5,502 nt of DNA from Coriobacteriales bacterium (lineage in GTDB: Bacteria > Actinomycetota > Coriobacteriia > Coriobacteriales > UBA8131). The stretch lies in assembly GCA_031261765.1 (NCBI GenBank), contig JAISJA010000052.1:1-5502 (forward strand), in the 5' to 3' direction. Within the stretch, counting starts at the first letter, position 1, and each line of letters starts with the position of its first letter. Under the pieces are notes generated by a model. The model was not told the origin of the DNA and did no database searches. It worked only from the letters and a program-made list of their open reading frames with translations. Shown here piece after piece: positions 1,187 to 5,288 of the stretch. The translations under genes and the position numbers were made by a program.

Positions 1187-1251
1187 GTGGATTCCGGGTC
1201 AAGCCCGGAATGACGTGATGGGGCGCCGAAATGACGTGATAGGGGCCGGAA
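1187..1251. repeat. REP-like palindromic element with two 21-bp units, intergenic copy
   Basis: The element opens with a perfect inverted repeat at 1191-1211: 8-bp arms ATTCCGGG and CCCGGAAT around the 5-base loop TCAAG. Two direct 21-bp units follow at 1210-1230 and 1231-1251, each starting ATGACGTGAT. It fills most of the 86-bp gap between the ferredoxin-DUF169 gene and the GNAT gene. The same palindrome-plus-21-bp-unit plan is found in the ilvB reading frame at 3144-3360, in the same orientation. There is no T-run after the hairpin on either strand, so an ordinary intrinsic terminator is unlikely. A role in mRNA processing or stability, or none at all, is possible. Confidence 0.85.
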
Positions 1252-1260
1252 TGCTGCCCA

Positions 1261-2280
1261 TCATGCCACCGGCAGGTATATCTTATCGCGGCTTTGCGGT
1301 ATGGCCTTCTTGCCAAGCTCCTTTAGGCCGCGTATGACCTCCGGCATAAGCGACACCGGTATACCAACGAACATGATGTCGTCTGACACGTCGCTTGAGG
1401 CACGGCAGCCGTAGCAGCCAAACGAGACGTTTATCTCGCCGGACGTATACGGTATGAGGGTCGTCTCAACACATTGCGCGTTATAGCCGGACGCGTGCAG
1501 GTCATGGCGGTGCCCAGTATAGTATGACGACGCCATCAATAGCCACATGACCTGTTCGGGGTTCGCGAACACGGCCACTACCTGCGGCGTGCACTTGGCG
1601 TCGTCCAACGGCGCCACGACGGTAGCGCGCACGGTGCGCGGCTCCAGGTGCGGACGCTCCCCCGTCATGCGCTTAGCGGCCTCCACGTTGTCAAGCTTGT
1701 GGAACAAGATATATAGCTCGCCAGACGCGAGCTTCGCCGGCATCTCAGTAAGGCCGAGTATGGACGTGCCGTCAGGACACGCATGGCGGTTCGCCGGCAA
1801 CATTATAGAACGTCCTCGACGCGCGGCTATGAGCGACTGGCAATAACGCATACGCTCGTTTGGAACGGGAACGTCGGGCAGCGGCTCGTTCGCCGGTATA
1901 AGGCTTATGGCCACCGGGTGCCACCGCAGCCCAAGCACGTCTTTCATGGTTTGGGCCCAGCCGTTGTACAGCTCGCGCTCTTCTTGCGAAAGCGCGGGAG
2001 CCTTCTGCCCGCTTTGTACGCCGGTCGTGCCGCCATGCACGGCGTCACCTGCAGCGGCGCATTGCTCGGCGCCTTCTTCAGCGCCTTCGCGCGGCGTTAT
2101 GGTTATGGCGCCCTCGGGGCACTGTCCCACGCACGTCTCGCAGCCCCAGCACGCCTCTGCGCGCGGCGCTTTTGGCATACCGTCTACCATGTCGAACACC
2201 TCTACCGGGCAGAACGCCTCACACAGCCCACAGCCGGTGCAGGCGTCCAGGTTTATATCTATGTCATATATCACGTTCAT
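1261..2280 (-). CDS. Two-cluster 4Fe-4S ferredoxin fused to DUF169 domain
   Basis: Predicted cytoplasmic iron-sulfur protein of 339 aa; its biochemical role is not known to me. Residues 1-62 form a bacterial 2x[4Fe-4S] ferredoxin: cluster one C14-C17-C20-C24-Pro, cluster two C44-C47-C50-C54-Pro, each CxxCxxCxxxCP. A low-complexity Ala/Gly/Glu linker covers about 65-98. Residues 102-335 match DUF169, a family common in anaerobic bacteria and archaea. Features include LGLRWHPVAISLIP, Cys at 147, 168, 230, 270, 289 and 292 (the last two as CYGCRAS), and YTSGEINVSFGC. The extra cysteines could hold another metal or cluster; that is inference. The ATG overlaps the ilvN stop (ATGA, 2277-2280) and has a strong Shine-Dalgarno, so translation is coupled to ilvN. 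It is the third gene of the ilvB-ilvN operon. It is not a recognised branched-chain amino acid enzyme. Confidence 0.9.
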   Translation of the reverse strand: MNVIYDIDINLDACTGCGLCEAFCPVEVFDMVDGMPKAPRAEACWGCETCVGQCPEGAITITPREGAEEGAEQCAAAGDAVHGGTTGVQSGQKAPALSQEERELYNGWAQTMKDVLGLRWHPVAISLIPANEPLPDVPVPNERMRYCQSLIAARRGRSIMLPANRHACPDGTSILGLTEMPAKLASGELYILFHKLDNVEAAKRMTGERPHLEPRTVRATVVAPLDDAKCTPQVVAVFANPEQVMWLLMASSYYTGHRHDLHASGYNAQCVETTLIPYTSGEINVSFGCYGCRASSDVSDDIMFVGIPVSLMPEVIRGLKELGKKAIPQSRDKIYLPVA

Positions 2281-2516
2281 GAATCTACCTCTTTTATCGT
2301 ATGCACGTTTATAAGCTTGTGGAGCTGCTTCTTGATCTGCTCTATAGTGGCGTCGTCGGTTGTCGCTATAAGCATTATACGTGATACCGTCTTGTCCTCC
2401 GTTGGACCAACGGCAAGCGATTCTATATTATAGCCGCGACGCGCCAAAAGCCCGGTCACGCGCGTAAGTACGCCAGGACGGTTGTCAACCAGAATGGAGA
2501 GTGTGTGCTTATCCAT
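2277..2516 (-). CDS. ilvN: Acetolactate synthase small (regulatory) subunit, ACT domain only
   Basis: Regulatory subunit of acetohydroxyacid synthase; in the family it activates the large subunit and gives feedback inhibition by branched-chain amino acids, usually valine. At 79 aa it holds one ACT domain and nothing else. HTLSILVDNRPGVLTRVTGLLARRGYNIESLAVGP is the hallmark N-terminal block, with the ligand-loop residues N12, G15 and V16; SRIMLIATTDD and a final strand INVHTIKEV follow. Most family members are about 160-170 aa with a second C-terminal domain. This one is nearer the short type (E. coli IlvN, 96 aa) and is shorter still. The ATG lies 8 bases inside the ilvB end (overlap 2509-2516) and its stop overlaps the next start, so it is tightly coupled on both sides. 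Six of 8 Ile codons are ATA. I see no frameshift: the frame ends cleanly at the coupled ATGA. Confidence 0.93.
   Translation of the reverse strand: MDKHTLSILVDNRPGVLTRVTGLLARRGYNIESLAVGPTEDKTVSRIMLIATTDDATIEQIKKQLHKLINVHTIKEVDS
2287..2294 (-). promoter_or_regulatory. Shine-Dalgarno inside ilvN for the ferredoxin-DUF169 gene
   Basis: Read on the minus strand this is AAAGAGGT, 6 bases before the ATG at 2280-2278. It lies inside the last codons of ilvN. With the ATGA stop/start overlap it supports coupled translation and decides the start of the DUF169 gene. Confidence 0.7.
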
Positions 2517-4371
2517 GTTCTATCATCTCTTCCAAAGAACCGTTTGGCTTGCGCATTGGCAACACGAGCTCGCTTGCGCCTATGGGCACTTCTAAAAGCG
2601 CCGGTCCGGCGGCGCTAAGCAACCAGCTGACGTCATCGCTTAACCAGGACTGTTTATACGTGCGCTTCGCTTGCCATCTGTACGCCTCGGCCAGTTTAAC
2701 GAAGTCCGGGTTGTCGTCAAGGCTCGTAGCCGCAAAGCGGTCGTTACCAAACAGGTGCTGCCATTGGCGCACCATGCCAAGCGCGCCGTTATTAAGAAGC
2801 AAGACCTTAACGGGCAGCTTGTTTATGGCTATGGTCGCCATTTCCTGCGACGTCATTTGCAGCGAGCCGTCCCCGCTTATGCAAAGCACCAGGCGTGTTG
2901 GATAAGCCACCTGCGCGCCCATGGCCGCCGGAAGGCCAAAGCCCATGGTGCCAAGCCCGCCTGACGTTATGAAGCGCCTTGGGCCGTCAACACGCAGATA
3001 CTGATTCGCCCACATCTGATGCTGGCCAACGTCTGTTGTTATGATAGCGTCATATTGTGATAGCTGCTTGTTCAACTCGTCGAACACCTGTTTGGGAGTT
3101 ATGGATTCCGGGTCGTCATCAAACGCGTCAGCGGCTGTTTGCGTGGATCCCGGGTCAAGCGCGGGATGACGTAACGGGACGCCGGGATGACGTGCTACCG
3201 TAACGTCATTGCGGGCCGTGTCCGCAGACGGCTGCGAAGCAGACGTCGTTAAGCGGACACGTGACCCGCAATCTATGGATCCCGGGTCAAGCCCGGGATG
3301 ACGTAATGGGGCGTCGGAATGACGTAATGGGACGCCGGGATGACGTAACGGGGTTTCGCTGGCGTCCTTGCCAAGCCGTTCCAAAAGCTCGCAAAGCACC
3401 GTCTTCGCGTCGCCCACGATGGGCACGTCAGCGCGTATGTTCTTGCCTATCTCGGCAGGGTCTATGTCTATGTGTATTATCTTCGCACCCGGCGCGAACT
3501 TATCCGGCTCGCCTGTAACGCGGTCGGTGAAGCGCGTTCCCACCGCCACGATAAGGTCGGCCGAGTTAAGCGCGTGGTTCGCCGCCGGCAAACCGTGCAT
3601 ACCAACGGCCCCAAGGGTATCGCTAAGCGCCCCTTTGGCCATTAACGTGCACACAACCGGTATGGAAGCCGCCTTGCTAAGGCGTGCAAGCTCGTCTGCG
3701 GCACCGCTGGCAATGACGCCGCCACCGGCCAATATAACGGGCTTATCAGCATGTTCTATAAGGTCGGCCGCGCGCATTACCTGTCTGCCGTTGCCCTCAT
3801 ACGTTGGCTTGTACGAGGCTATGTCCGGCTGCTGCGTAAGCGGCGTGTAGCTTACCATGGCGTTAGCAACGTCGTTTGGCACGTCTATTAGCACGGGGCC
3901 GGGACGTCCCGTACTGGCTATGTAGAACGCCTCGTGCACCGCGGGCACAAGATTGCGCGCGTCTTTTATAAGGTAGCTGTGCTTGACTATCGGCAACGTT
4001 ATGGTCGAGATGTCGGCTTCCTGGAACGCGTCCGTGCCTATGGACGTCGTAGCTACCTGCCCCGTTATGACCACTACCGGCACGGAGTCCATGTAGGCCG
4101 TGGCTATGCCGGTAACGGTATTCGTGGCCCCCGGCCCGCTTGTGGCAAACGCCACGCCAACGTTTCCGCTGGCGCGCGCGTATCCGTCGGCCGCGTGCAC
4201 AGCCCCCTGCTCGTGGCGAACGAGTATATGCCTTATCTGCGAAGAGGCGTATAAAGCGTCGTATATCTGCATGACTTGTGCGCCGGGAATTCCGAAGGCG
4301 ACACTGACGCCTTCGTTCTCTAACGCAGCGACAAGCGCGCGCGCACCGGTCATTGTCCTTTTATGTGCCAT
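2509..4371 (-). CDS. ilvB: Acetolactate synthase large (catalytic) subunit with in-frame repeat insertion
   Basis: ThDP-, Mg- and FAD-dependent enzyme joining pyruvate to pyruvate or 2-oxobutyrate, the first common step of Val/Leu/Ile synthesis. It is 620 aa from the chosen ATG, against about 560-575 usual. The PYR domain has the catalytic Glu54 in VRHEQGAVHAADGYAR and FATSGPGATN. The central domain shows GTRFTDRVTG (279-288). The ThDP domain has TTDVGQHQMWANQY, SGGLGTMGFGLPAAMGAQ, the metal motif G500-D-G...N527-N528, and a C-terminal PM block. Residues about 341-410 are encoded by a palindromic repeat (3144-3360) in the interdomain linker. They contain PLRHPGV, PLRHSDA and PLRHPGL. The usual Trp-containing linker helix is not seen. 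All motifs remain, so the enzyme is probably active. Start: ATG at 4371 with a weak purine stretch (AAGATAG) before it. A TTG at 4389 and an ATG at 4353 are alternatives; TGARALVAAL aligns with the normal N-terminus. First gene of ilvB-ilvN-DUF169. Confidence 0.95.
   Translation of the reverse strand: MAHKRTMTGARALVAALENEGVSVAFGIPGAQVMQIYDALYASSQIRHILVRHEQGAVHAADGYARASGNVGVAFATSGPGATNTVTGIATAYMDSVPVVVITGQVATTSIGTDAFQEADISTITLPIVKHSYLIKDARNLVPAVHEAFYIASTGRPGPVLIDVPNDVANAMVSYTPLTQQPDIASYKPTYEGNGRQVMRAADLIEHADKPVILAGGGVIASGAADELARLSKAASIPVVCTLMAKGALSDTLGAVGMHGLPAANHALNSADLIVAVGTRFTDRVTGEPDKFAPGAKIIHIDIDPAEIGKNIRADVPIVGDAKTVLCELLERLGKDASETPLRHPGVPLRHSDAPLRHPGLDPGSIDCGSRVRLTTSASQPSADTARNDVTVARHPGVPLRHPALDPGSTQTAADAFDDDPESITPKQVFDELNKQLSQYDAIITTDVGQHQMWANQYLRVDGPRRFITSGGLGTMGFGLPAAMGAQVAYPTRLVLCISGDGSLQMTSQEMATIAINKLPVKVLLLNNGALGMVRQWQHLFGNDRFAATSLDDNPDFVKLAEAYRWQAKRTYKQSWLSDDVSWLLSAAGPALLEVPIGASELVLPMRKPNGSLEEMIEHG
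3208..3272. repeat. Second, longer inverted repeat nested in the cluster
   Basis: The left arm at 3208-3225 (ATTGCGGGCCGTGTCCGC) and the right arm at 3253-3272 (GCGGACACGTGACCCGCAAT) are reverse complements apart from a 2-base indel. The loop holds a smaller hairpin at 3227-3247: GACG, a mismatch, CTGC, loop GAA, GCAG, a mismatch, CGTC. The outer sequence differs from the ATCCCGGG palindrome, so this is a distinct repeat type joined to it through CTATGG (3273-3278). Confidence 0.8.
3279..3299. repeat. Perfect REP-like palindrome in ilvB
   Basis: Arms ATCCCGGG (3279-3286) and CCCGGGAT (3292-3299) are perfect reverse complements around the loop TCAAG. On the ilvB strand it is translated as part of HPGLDPGS. 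The sister copy at 3147-3167 has one arm mismatch (G at 3161) and gives HPALDPGS. Confidence 0.85.
3298..3360. repeat. 21-bp direct tandem repeats encoding heptapeptides
   Basis: Three units start at 3298, 3319 and 3340, each beginning ATGACGTAAT or ATGACGTAAC. The third diverges in its last 8 bases, where host ilvB sequence resumes. On the ilvB strand they encode the repeats PLRHPGV, PLRHSDA and PLRHPGL. Confidence 0.85.
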
Positions 4372-4473: not shown

Positions 4474-5172
4474 ATGGCAGATAACAGCAAGAAAATATCA
4501 AAGCTGAAAAAAGCACCCCAAGGGTACATCCCGCTCAAATATTACAACCTTTTCTGGATATTCATCCTCTGCTCCGTAATAGGGCTGCTCATAGAAACGC
4601 TATACCAGTATTTCGTGTTCGGTGACCTGGAAAGCCGCGCGAGCCTCGTGTTCGGGCCTTTCTCGACCATATACGGCGTTGGCGGCGTGTTGCTAACGGT
4701 GTTCTTGAACCGCATATGGGACAAGAACATATTCGTCATATTCATAGTGTCAATGGTCGTTGGCATGGCGCTGGAGTTCTTCACCAGCTGGGCCATGGAG
4801 GCCTTATTTGGGATAACCGCGTGGTACTACGGAGGCATGTGGGGCAACATAGGCGGTCGCACGAGCATAGGCTTTGGCATAATGTGGGGCATGTTGGGCG
4901 TGCTGTGGATACGTTTCTTGCTGCCTTGGGTACTGCGGATAATAAACCTCATACCGTTCAGGTGGCATATAGTGTTCACCGTGGCCATGTCCATATTCAT
5001 GGCACTTGACATAGCCGTCACCCTTGTGGCCACGAACCGCTGGTACGAACGCGAACGCGGCATACCGGCCACGAACGTCATACAGCAACAATGCGACAGG
5101 ATGTTCCCTGACACGTTCATGGAAGACAGGTTCCAGAACGCCACTATGTACCCGTCTTCGGCCGCGCGCTAG
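4474..5172 (+). CDS. PF06541-type integral membrane protein (putative ABC transporter permease)
   Basis: Membrane protein of 232 aa matching the PF06541 (CmpB-type 'putative ABC transporter permease') family; its function is not established and no ABC ATPase is adjacent. A basic N-tail (SKKISKLKKAPQG) is followed by about five hydrophobic segments at 23-44, 62-80, 86-108, 132-155 and 165-187. Family marks are visible: E41 in the first helix, GPFSTIYGVGG (61-71), ALEFFTSWAMEALFGITAWYY (99-119), GNIGGRTSIGFGIMWGMLG (124-142). A hydrophilic tail with FPDTFMEDRFQNATMYP closes the protein, as in relatives. The ATG at 4474 is the only good start, though the Shine-Dalgarno (GGACGG) is unusually close. 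The gene is divergent from ilvB and apparently monocistronic. Its stop codon lies in the first unit of a tandem repeat array. Ile codons: 22 of 24 are ATA. Confidence 0.88.
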   Translation: MADNSKKISKLKKAPQGYIPLKYYNLFWIFILCSVIGLLIETLYQYFVFGDLESRASLVFGPFSTIYGVGGVLLTVFLNRIWDKNIFVIFIVSMVVGMALEFFTSWAMEALFGITAWYYGGMWGNIGGRTSIGFGIMWGMLGVLWIRFLLPWVLRIINLIPFRWHIVFTVAMSIFMALDIAVTLVATNRWYERERGIPATNVIQQQCDRMFPDTFMEDRFQNATMYPSSAAR

Positions 5173-5288
5173 GTTCGGCTACCGCTAAGTCCGGCTACCG
5201 CTAAGTCCGGCTACTGCCAAGTCCGGCCGCGCACCAGGTCCGGCCGCGCACCGGGCTCAGTCGCGCACCGGGTTTAACCGCGCGCTAG
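5156..5288. repeat. Degenerate 16-17 bp tandem array between convergent genes
   Basis: Eight units run back to back: 5156-5172, 5173-5188, 5189-5204, 5205-5220, 5221-5237, 5238-5254, 5255-5271, 5272-5288. There are two subtypes: GTCCGGCTACCGCTAA (16 bp, three units) and GTCCGGCCGCGCACCGG-like (17 bp). Both outermost units end in CGCGCTAG. The first supplies the TAG stop of the plus-strand membrane gene (5170-5172), and the last supplies the TAG stop of the minus-strand gene (5285-5287). No spacers are present, so this is not a CRISPR array. GC-rich hairpins could form, but no T-run marks an intrinsic terminator. It could still slow convergent transcription; that is inference. Confidence 0.85.

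Follow-up and report, generated by a model that had tools for sequence, protein, structure and literature searches.

An ilvB gene of a Coriobacteriales bacterium contains a cluster of palindromic repeat DNA that is open in frame and adds about 70 residues to the encoded acetolactate synthase large subunit. In all probability, the cluster is selfish CGTC-type REP DNA, which is tolerated in a permissive linker of IlvB and was enlarged there by more REPs and 21-bp units. This kind of element is already known; the host group and the gene are new.

The window, i.e., the whole stretch of 5,502 nucleotides that was analyzed, was annotated by ORF calling and Pfam. The ilvB gene is located on the minus strand at positions 2509-4371, with its ATG start codon at 4371 and its end at 2509, and the frame is continuous across the repeat cluster. 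The 620-residue product, with the insert in frame, contains the domains TPP_enzyme_N (residues 7-122), TPP_enzyme M (200-329), and TPP_enzyme C (447-595). The end of ilvB is overlapped by a gene for an ilvN-like ACT regulatory subunit of 79 residues (2277-2516, minus strand). Also on the minus strand are genes for a ferredoxin-DUF169 protein, which is devoid of REPs in the window (1261-2280), and for a GNAT acetyltransferase (725-1174), whilst the plus strand carries the end portion of a gene for an HD-domain protein (1-717) and a gene for an ABC_trans_CmpB-type membrane protein (4474-5172). A GC-rich array of 16-17-bp tandem repeats at 5167-5283 covers the end of the latter gene and the region directly 3' of it.

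The repeat cluster in ilvB measures 210 bp (3144-3353, minus strand) and encodes residues 341-409 entirely and residues 340 and 410 in part. In a preliminary description, it was placed at 3144-3360 and at residues 341-410; the start stands and the residues are correct to within one, but the repeat DNA already stops at 3353. The cluster is composed of three palindromic repeats and 21-bp satellites. REP1 (3144-3171, plus strand) has its CGTC-tag end at 3171 and, when the minus strand is read, its CCA tail at 3144, and it contains one mismatch in the stem. It is followed by a single 21-bp satellite unit (3172-3192, plus strand), of which the last bases are ATGACG, and by a short spacer. REP2 (3204-3274, minus strand) has the opposite orientation and is a variant with a GC stem (CGTCATTGCGGG...CCCGCAAT) and an enlarged loop. 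This loop contains an inverted repeat of its own, which is absent from all other loci examined. REP3 (3276-3303, plus strand) forms a head-to-head dimer with REP2, with the CGTC tags on the outside, and reads CGTC-ATCCCGGG-CTTGA-CCCGGGAT-CCA on the ilvB strand. The cluster is completed by two units of 21 bp and an incomplete third one (3304-3353, plus strand). Since 21 bp correspond to seven codons, tandem growth of these units keeps the ilvB frame. Six-frame translation of 3144-3353 revealed stops in five frames, and the only stop-free frame is that of ilvB, in agreement with the earlier observation that the residues are added without a stop or frameshift.

A second copy of the family (1188-1253, plus strand) is located in the gap between the ferredoxin-DUF169 and GNAT genes and consists of a palindrome (1188-1215) followed by 21-bp units. 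A repeat finder recognized a 56-nt family at 1188-1243, 3144-3199, and 3276-3331, with the latter two copies showing 80 and 88% identity, respectively, to the first. It also detected tandem units of 21 bp, which span 1205-1253 and 3293-3353. Thus, the cluster indeed shares its palindrome and 21-bp units with an intergenic copy, as had been proposed. The stop codon of the ferredoxin-DUF169 gene is separated by ~7 bp from the 21-bp units of this intergenic copy and by ~45 bp from its palindrome (window 1216-1260).

The sequences on both sides of the insert are those of an ordinary acetolactate synthase. The catalytic Glu54 and the ThDP motif had been reported as intact, and residues E54, G500, D501, and N528 indeed show no variation in 31 aligned sequences. 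Solved acetolactate synthases align to IlvB on either side of the insert. The best match, 7tzz (a chloroplastic AHAS), covers residues 7-337 and 421-620 of IlvB, with 83 residues in the window vs. 28 in 7tzz at the position of the insert. An AlphaFold model of IlvB, built on a 31-row alignment, showed both halves folded (mean pLDDT 79, pTM 0.84). The pLDDT was below 50 at residues 338-386 and 388-418 and also at 282-287; calculated per block, it was 29-46 for the insert and >80 for most others, with modest values in some. The model supports the view that the insert is unstructured and lies within the interdomain linker, where it had been placed before.

IlvB was matched in 236 of 297 genomes of the order. 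The closest homologue found, in genome G063, is 60% identical over residues 7-617 and 67% identical to the window over residues 7-335. Judging from this protein identity and from the 68% identity of the ferredoxin-DUF169 protein to its G103 homologue, the window probably belongs to the same Coriobacteriales family as G063 and G103. Inspection by eye of 36 linker rows of relatives, i.e., those with DNA fetched among the 236 matching genomes, revealed no repeat peptide, which bears out the expectation that relatives lack the segment. The IlvB linker of G051 contains no REP-coded peptide either. The 36 rows include two genes twice, a paralogue (L084), and one row cut by a contig end (L088), and the absence applies to the protein level, the relatives being too diverged for a base-level empty site. 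With L088 excluded, the linker stretch measures 57-93 residues in the relatives vs. 118 in the window. It contains a tandem stretch rich in Pro-Ala in G063 and low-complexity sequence in its congeners G017 and G099.

By its form, the window element fits the CGTC-REP superfamily. REP1 and REP3 open with CGTCAT on the minus strand, and REP2 does so on the plus strand. REP3 displays the characteristic AT-first stem of 8-9 bp, loop of 4-5 nt, and CCA-like tail, from which REP1 deviates by its stem mismatch and REP2 by its long loop. REP2 and REP3 constitute the head-to-head dimer, and the element is multicopy in relatives, with up to 73 copies per genome, its own organism being seen through this window only. 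CGTC REPs, as presented in the main text of Di Nocera et al. (2013; PMC3733652), have the tag, an 8-bp AT-first stem, a 5-nt loop, and a CCA tail in common with the window element, and likewise form head-to-head dimers and have no dedicated transposase; relative to that text, the 21-bp satellites and the long-loop form seen in REP2 appear to be additional features. The same report describes several bacteria with REPs inside housekeeping genes; DNA polymerase I and RNA-related genes are among the sites. In its main text, CGTC repeats are named in five phyla, none of which is actinobacterial, and the terms "Actinobacteria," "acetolactate," and "ilv" do not occur. The superfamily includes RPE-4 and RPE-6 of Rickettsia (PMC3733652). 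The preliminary description had pointed to Rickettsia RPE as a parallel, and rightly so, but it overlooked the CGTC-REP superfamily and the intragenic REPs in other bacteria (PMC3733652). Rickettsia RPE are also palindromic, in frame, and tolerated in conserved genes (PMC2229807, PMC3733652), and the window element shares with them the in-frame insertion into protein genes; they belong to another phylum, and the likeness is one of descriptions, not of compared sequences. GTAG REPs and REPINs are similar in being short palindromes that form dimers and are found mainly outside genes. They differ in their GTAG tag and in their association with RAYT transposases; the tag in the window is CGTC, and no RAYT-adjoining repeats were found in the repeat-bearing genomes. 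At the sequence level, the palindrome matches plasmid repeats of Sphingobium, Sphingomonas, and Novosphingobium with 98.1% identity, in two short pieces with an E value of 1e-3. A literature search (titles and abstracts; few subscription papers) yielded no relevant REP in Coriobacteria, palindromic element in acetolactate synthase, or intragenic REP in Actinobacteria, and a search with the letters of the palindrome yielded nothing relevant.

Genomes were scanned for the 22-bp core of the palindrome with up to two mismatches, with the reversed pattern as a control. The palindrome is present in 12 of 33 genomes of the family at 1-73 copies each, i.e., 73 in G051, 31 in G103, 30 in G063, 27 in G071, 19 in G147, and fewer in seven others, and the control gave no match. 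Order-wide, 17 of 395 genomes matched, again with none for the control; beyond the 12 family genomes, these comprise G396 (23 copies), G228 (10), and three genomes with one copy each. The palindrome is not a chance sequence. Head-to-head (-+) pairs are numerous in G063 and G071. One genus contains the repeat-bearing genomes G063 and G051 as well as the repeat-free G017, G099, and G119, and a family with such repeat-rich and repeat-free congeners is a place to seek the mover of CGTC REPs. Genes for Y1_Tnp (RAYT-type) proteins were found in 15 of the 33 genomes, i.e., in 7 of the 12 with the repeat and in 8 of the 21 without. In the repeat-bearing genomes, no repeat was present near any of 11 such genes (0.4-3 kb on each side, some cut by contig ends), and a role of RAYT as the mobilizer is, therefore, unsupported. 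None of six Y1_Tnp genes from repeat-free genomes had an adjoining repeat either; there were 24 Y1_Tnp matches in total, and the seven outside the comparison are all from repeat-free genomes.

REPs in other genes were sought at loci, among the matches listed, from all repeat-bearing genomes of the family but G041 (11 of 12), with a pattern allowing up to three mismatches. Among the matches listed, 174 distinct clusters were examined, of which 27 are inside ORFs of at least 200 codons with 150 bases on each side, and 147 are outside by this ORF criterion, their intergenic position not being confirmed singly. This low genic share in mostly coding genomes, a raw share without a chance expectation, suggests that REPs rarely target genes or that genes rarely tolerate them. 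In 16 of the 174 clusters, the REP is internal and in frame and the identity of the host gene is supported by a Pfam domain across the site, by domains flanking it, or by alignment to homologues without the repeat. Hence, copies in other genes, as anticipated in the preliminary description, do exist; the ORF filter itself makes every internal copy found open in frame. The hosts are DUF1385 (L178, L293), an AMP-binding ligase (L186), RNase R (L218), an electron-transfer type dihydroorotate dehydrogenase (L239), NAD(P)H-hydrate dehydratase (L251), Cas10 (L255, two clusters), PriA (L285, two clusters), Pol I (L291), ferredoxin-DUF169 (L297), MFS proteins (L299, L314), an Fe-S protein with a nitrate-reductase-gamma domain (L301), and an HI0933-like protein (L306). 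At the position of the REP, RNase R of L218 has 46 residues vs. 9 in the solved RNase R 8cdu. The ferredoxin-DUF169 proteins form a clean pair: those of the window and G103 are 68% identical, and only the latter contains the REP-coded stretch. The weakest case is Pol I, which rests on the position between domains because the PDB alignment crosses the REP without a clear gap. Probable further hosts are EamA (L220) and MurT (L310), and two more clusters outside the 16 are located in a 385-aa ORF without a Pfam match (L255) and in an HsdR fragment (L273). The remaining seven of the 27 were rejected as spurious or 5' of the likely start, i.e., L223, PheS of L291, and, by eye without a Pfam scan, L216, L221, L227, L250, and a second cluster of L186. 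Besides its Cas10 gene, L255 (in G083) contains an adjacent ORF, and several in-frame REP variants are found in the two.

Four reading frames are used among the 16 insertions, giving peptides of the KIPGQARND, LRVKPAMT, RHSGLDPES, and VIPGLTRNL types; the two stop-carrying frames are absent among internal REPs, as the ORF filter ensures. The use of four frames means that nothing points to a function of the peptide. REPs are found in the DUF1385 loop of both G063 and G103, in differing frames, and the length of this loop varies from 34 to 131 residues in 19 genomes compared of the 28 matching. In L332 (G119), this loop consists of tandem QDDSESA units and opens with EKILRCAQDD, which resembles another common repeat-coded peptide.

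That the insert is adaptive, for example by tuning linker length or the regulation of acetolactate synthase, is improbable. Its site between two domains and the fact that G063 and G103 both have REPs in one and the same loop of DUF1385 would suit such a role, but the four differing frames, the unrelated host genes, the variability of the linker, and the disorder in the model argue against it. We also consider it very unlikely that the segment is missing from the protein, with the hairpin being bypassed by ribosomes or the segment being spliced or cleaved. Bypassing has precedents in gene 60 of phage T4 and the byp elements of yeast mitochondria, and the cluster is predicted to fold far better than shuffled sequences (-95.6 kcal/mol for the RNA of 3140-3357 vs. 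a shuffle mean of -70.75, z -5.6). Yet, bypassing would require neither an open frame nor a length that is a multiple of three, both of which are found here. Furthermore, no REP-broken gene was detected in the 10 of 62 same-strand ORF pairs on either side of a REP that were scanned with Pfam, a weak argument in that hits on both sides were obtained in only four, i.e., L217 (TGT/QueH), L238 (molybdopterin/SDR), L241 (M29/ABC2), and L236, which comprises two nitrogenase-type ORFs each starting at the start of the profile. In addition, a guanylate kinase of Rickettsia bearing an RPE was reported to be translated and active (PMC2229807).

An assembly artefact, in which repeat-rich reads were collapsed into ilvB, is highly improbable. 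The source record may be draft or metagenomic, and repeats attract misassembly; against this stand the intact frame of 620 codons, the presence of the two halves of the enzyme and of ilvN in their expected order, and the like pattern in many genes elsewhere, although those genomes may be drafts too. Finally, there is next to no chance that the segment is ordinary conserved protein that merely appears repetitive. No point in favor of this explanation was found, and it conflicts with the absence from the 36 linker rows; moreover, the same DNA is also found outside genes, not only in relatives but in the window itself, as well as in other frames and on either strand. Thus, the relatives examined do not carry the residues as conserved protein, and the repeat does occur elsewhere, as judged from the second copy in the window and from the relatives.

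According to the favored explanation of tolerated REP DNA, a CGTC-type REP of this Coriobacteriales lineage, presumably moved by an enzyme, would have entered the linker that joins the FAD-type central domain to the C-terminal ThDP domain. The insertion would be tolerated because the linker is variable and partly of low complexity in near relatives, and only an insertion with an open frame and a length that is a multiple of three would have survived. Later, the site would have gained more REPs, giving rise to the head-to-head dimer, and the tandem 21-bp units. The segment is probably translated, and the product would be an ordinary acetolactate synthase of retained activity with a disordered, REP-coded linker of ~70 residues.

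The DUF1385 loop, the Pro-Ala stretch of G063, and the 7-codon units of the window suggest that linkers are supplied with sequence by the insertion of repeats and by tandem growth. A more speculative extension, to which we attach rather limited credence, is that REP insertion with in-frame tandem growth is a recurrent source of linkers in the core enzymes of this family, and that many of its linkers and loops of low complexity represent repeat DNA in decay rather than ancestral protein that has drifted. The best-known palindromes that code for protein are those of Rickettsia, for which the decay of the genome and the intracellular way of life provide an easy explanation. That REPs of the same type are in frame in PriA, RNase R, Cas10, acetolactate synthase, and other proteins of a Coriobacteriales family suggests a general process. 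Such REPs indicate a source of new linker sequence, and pairs of proteins with and without the insert are material for testing tolerance.

REPs were also observed in an IMG/VR contig (3300003667_000196; L318 and L321), which appears phage-like as it contains, by eye, transposase-like and head-morphogenesis-like ORFs. Phages may be carriers of REPs between hosts. This contig contains ten exact copies of the palindrome, several of them in frame in ORFs, where they encode RHSGLDPES peptides.
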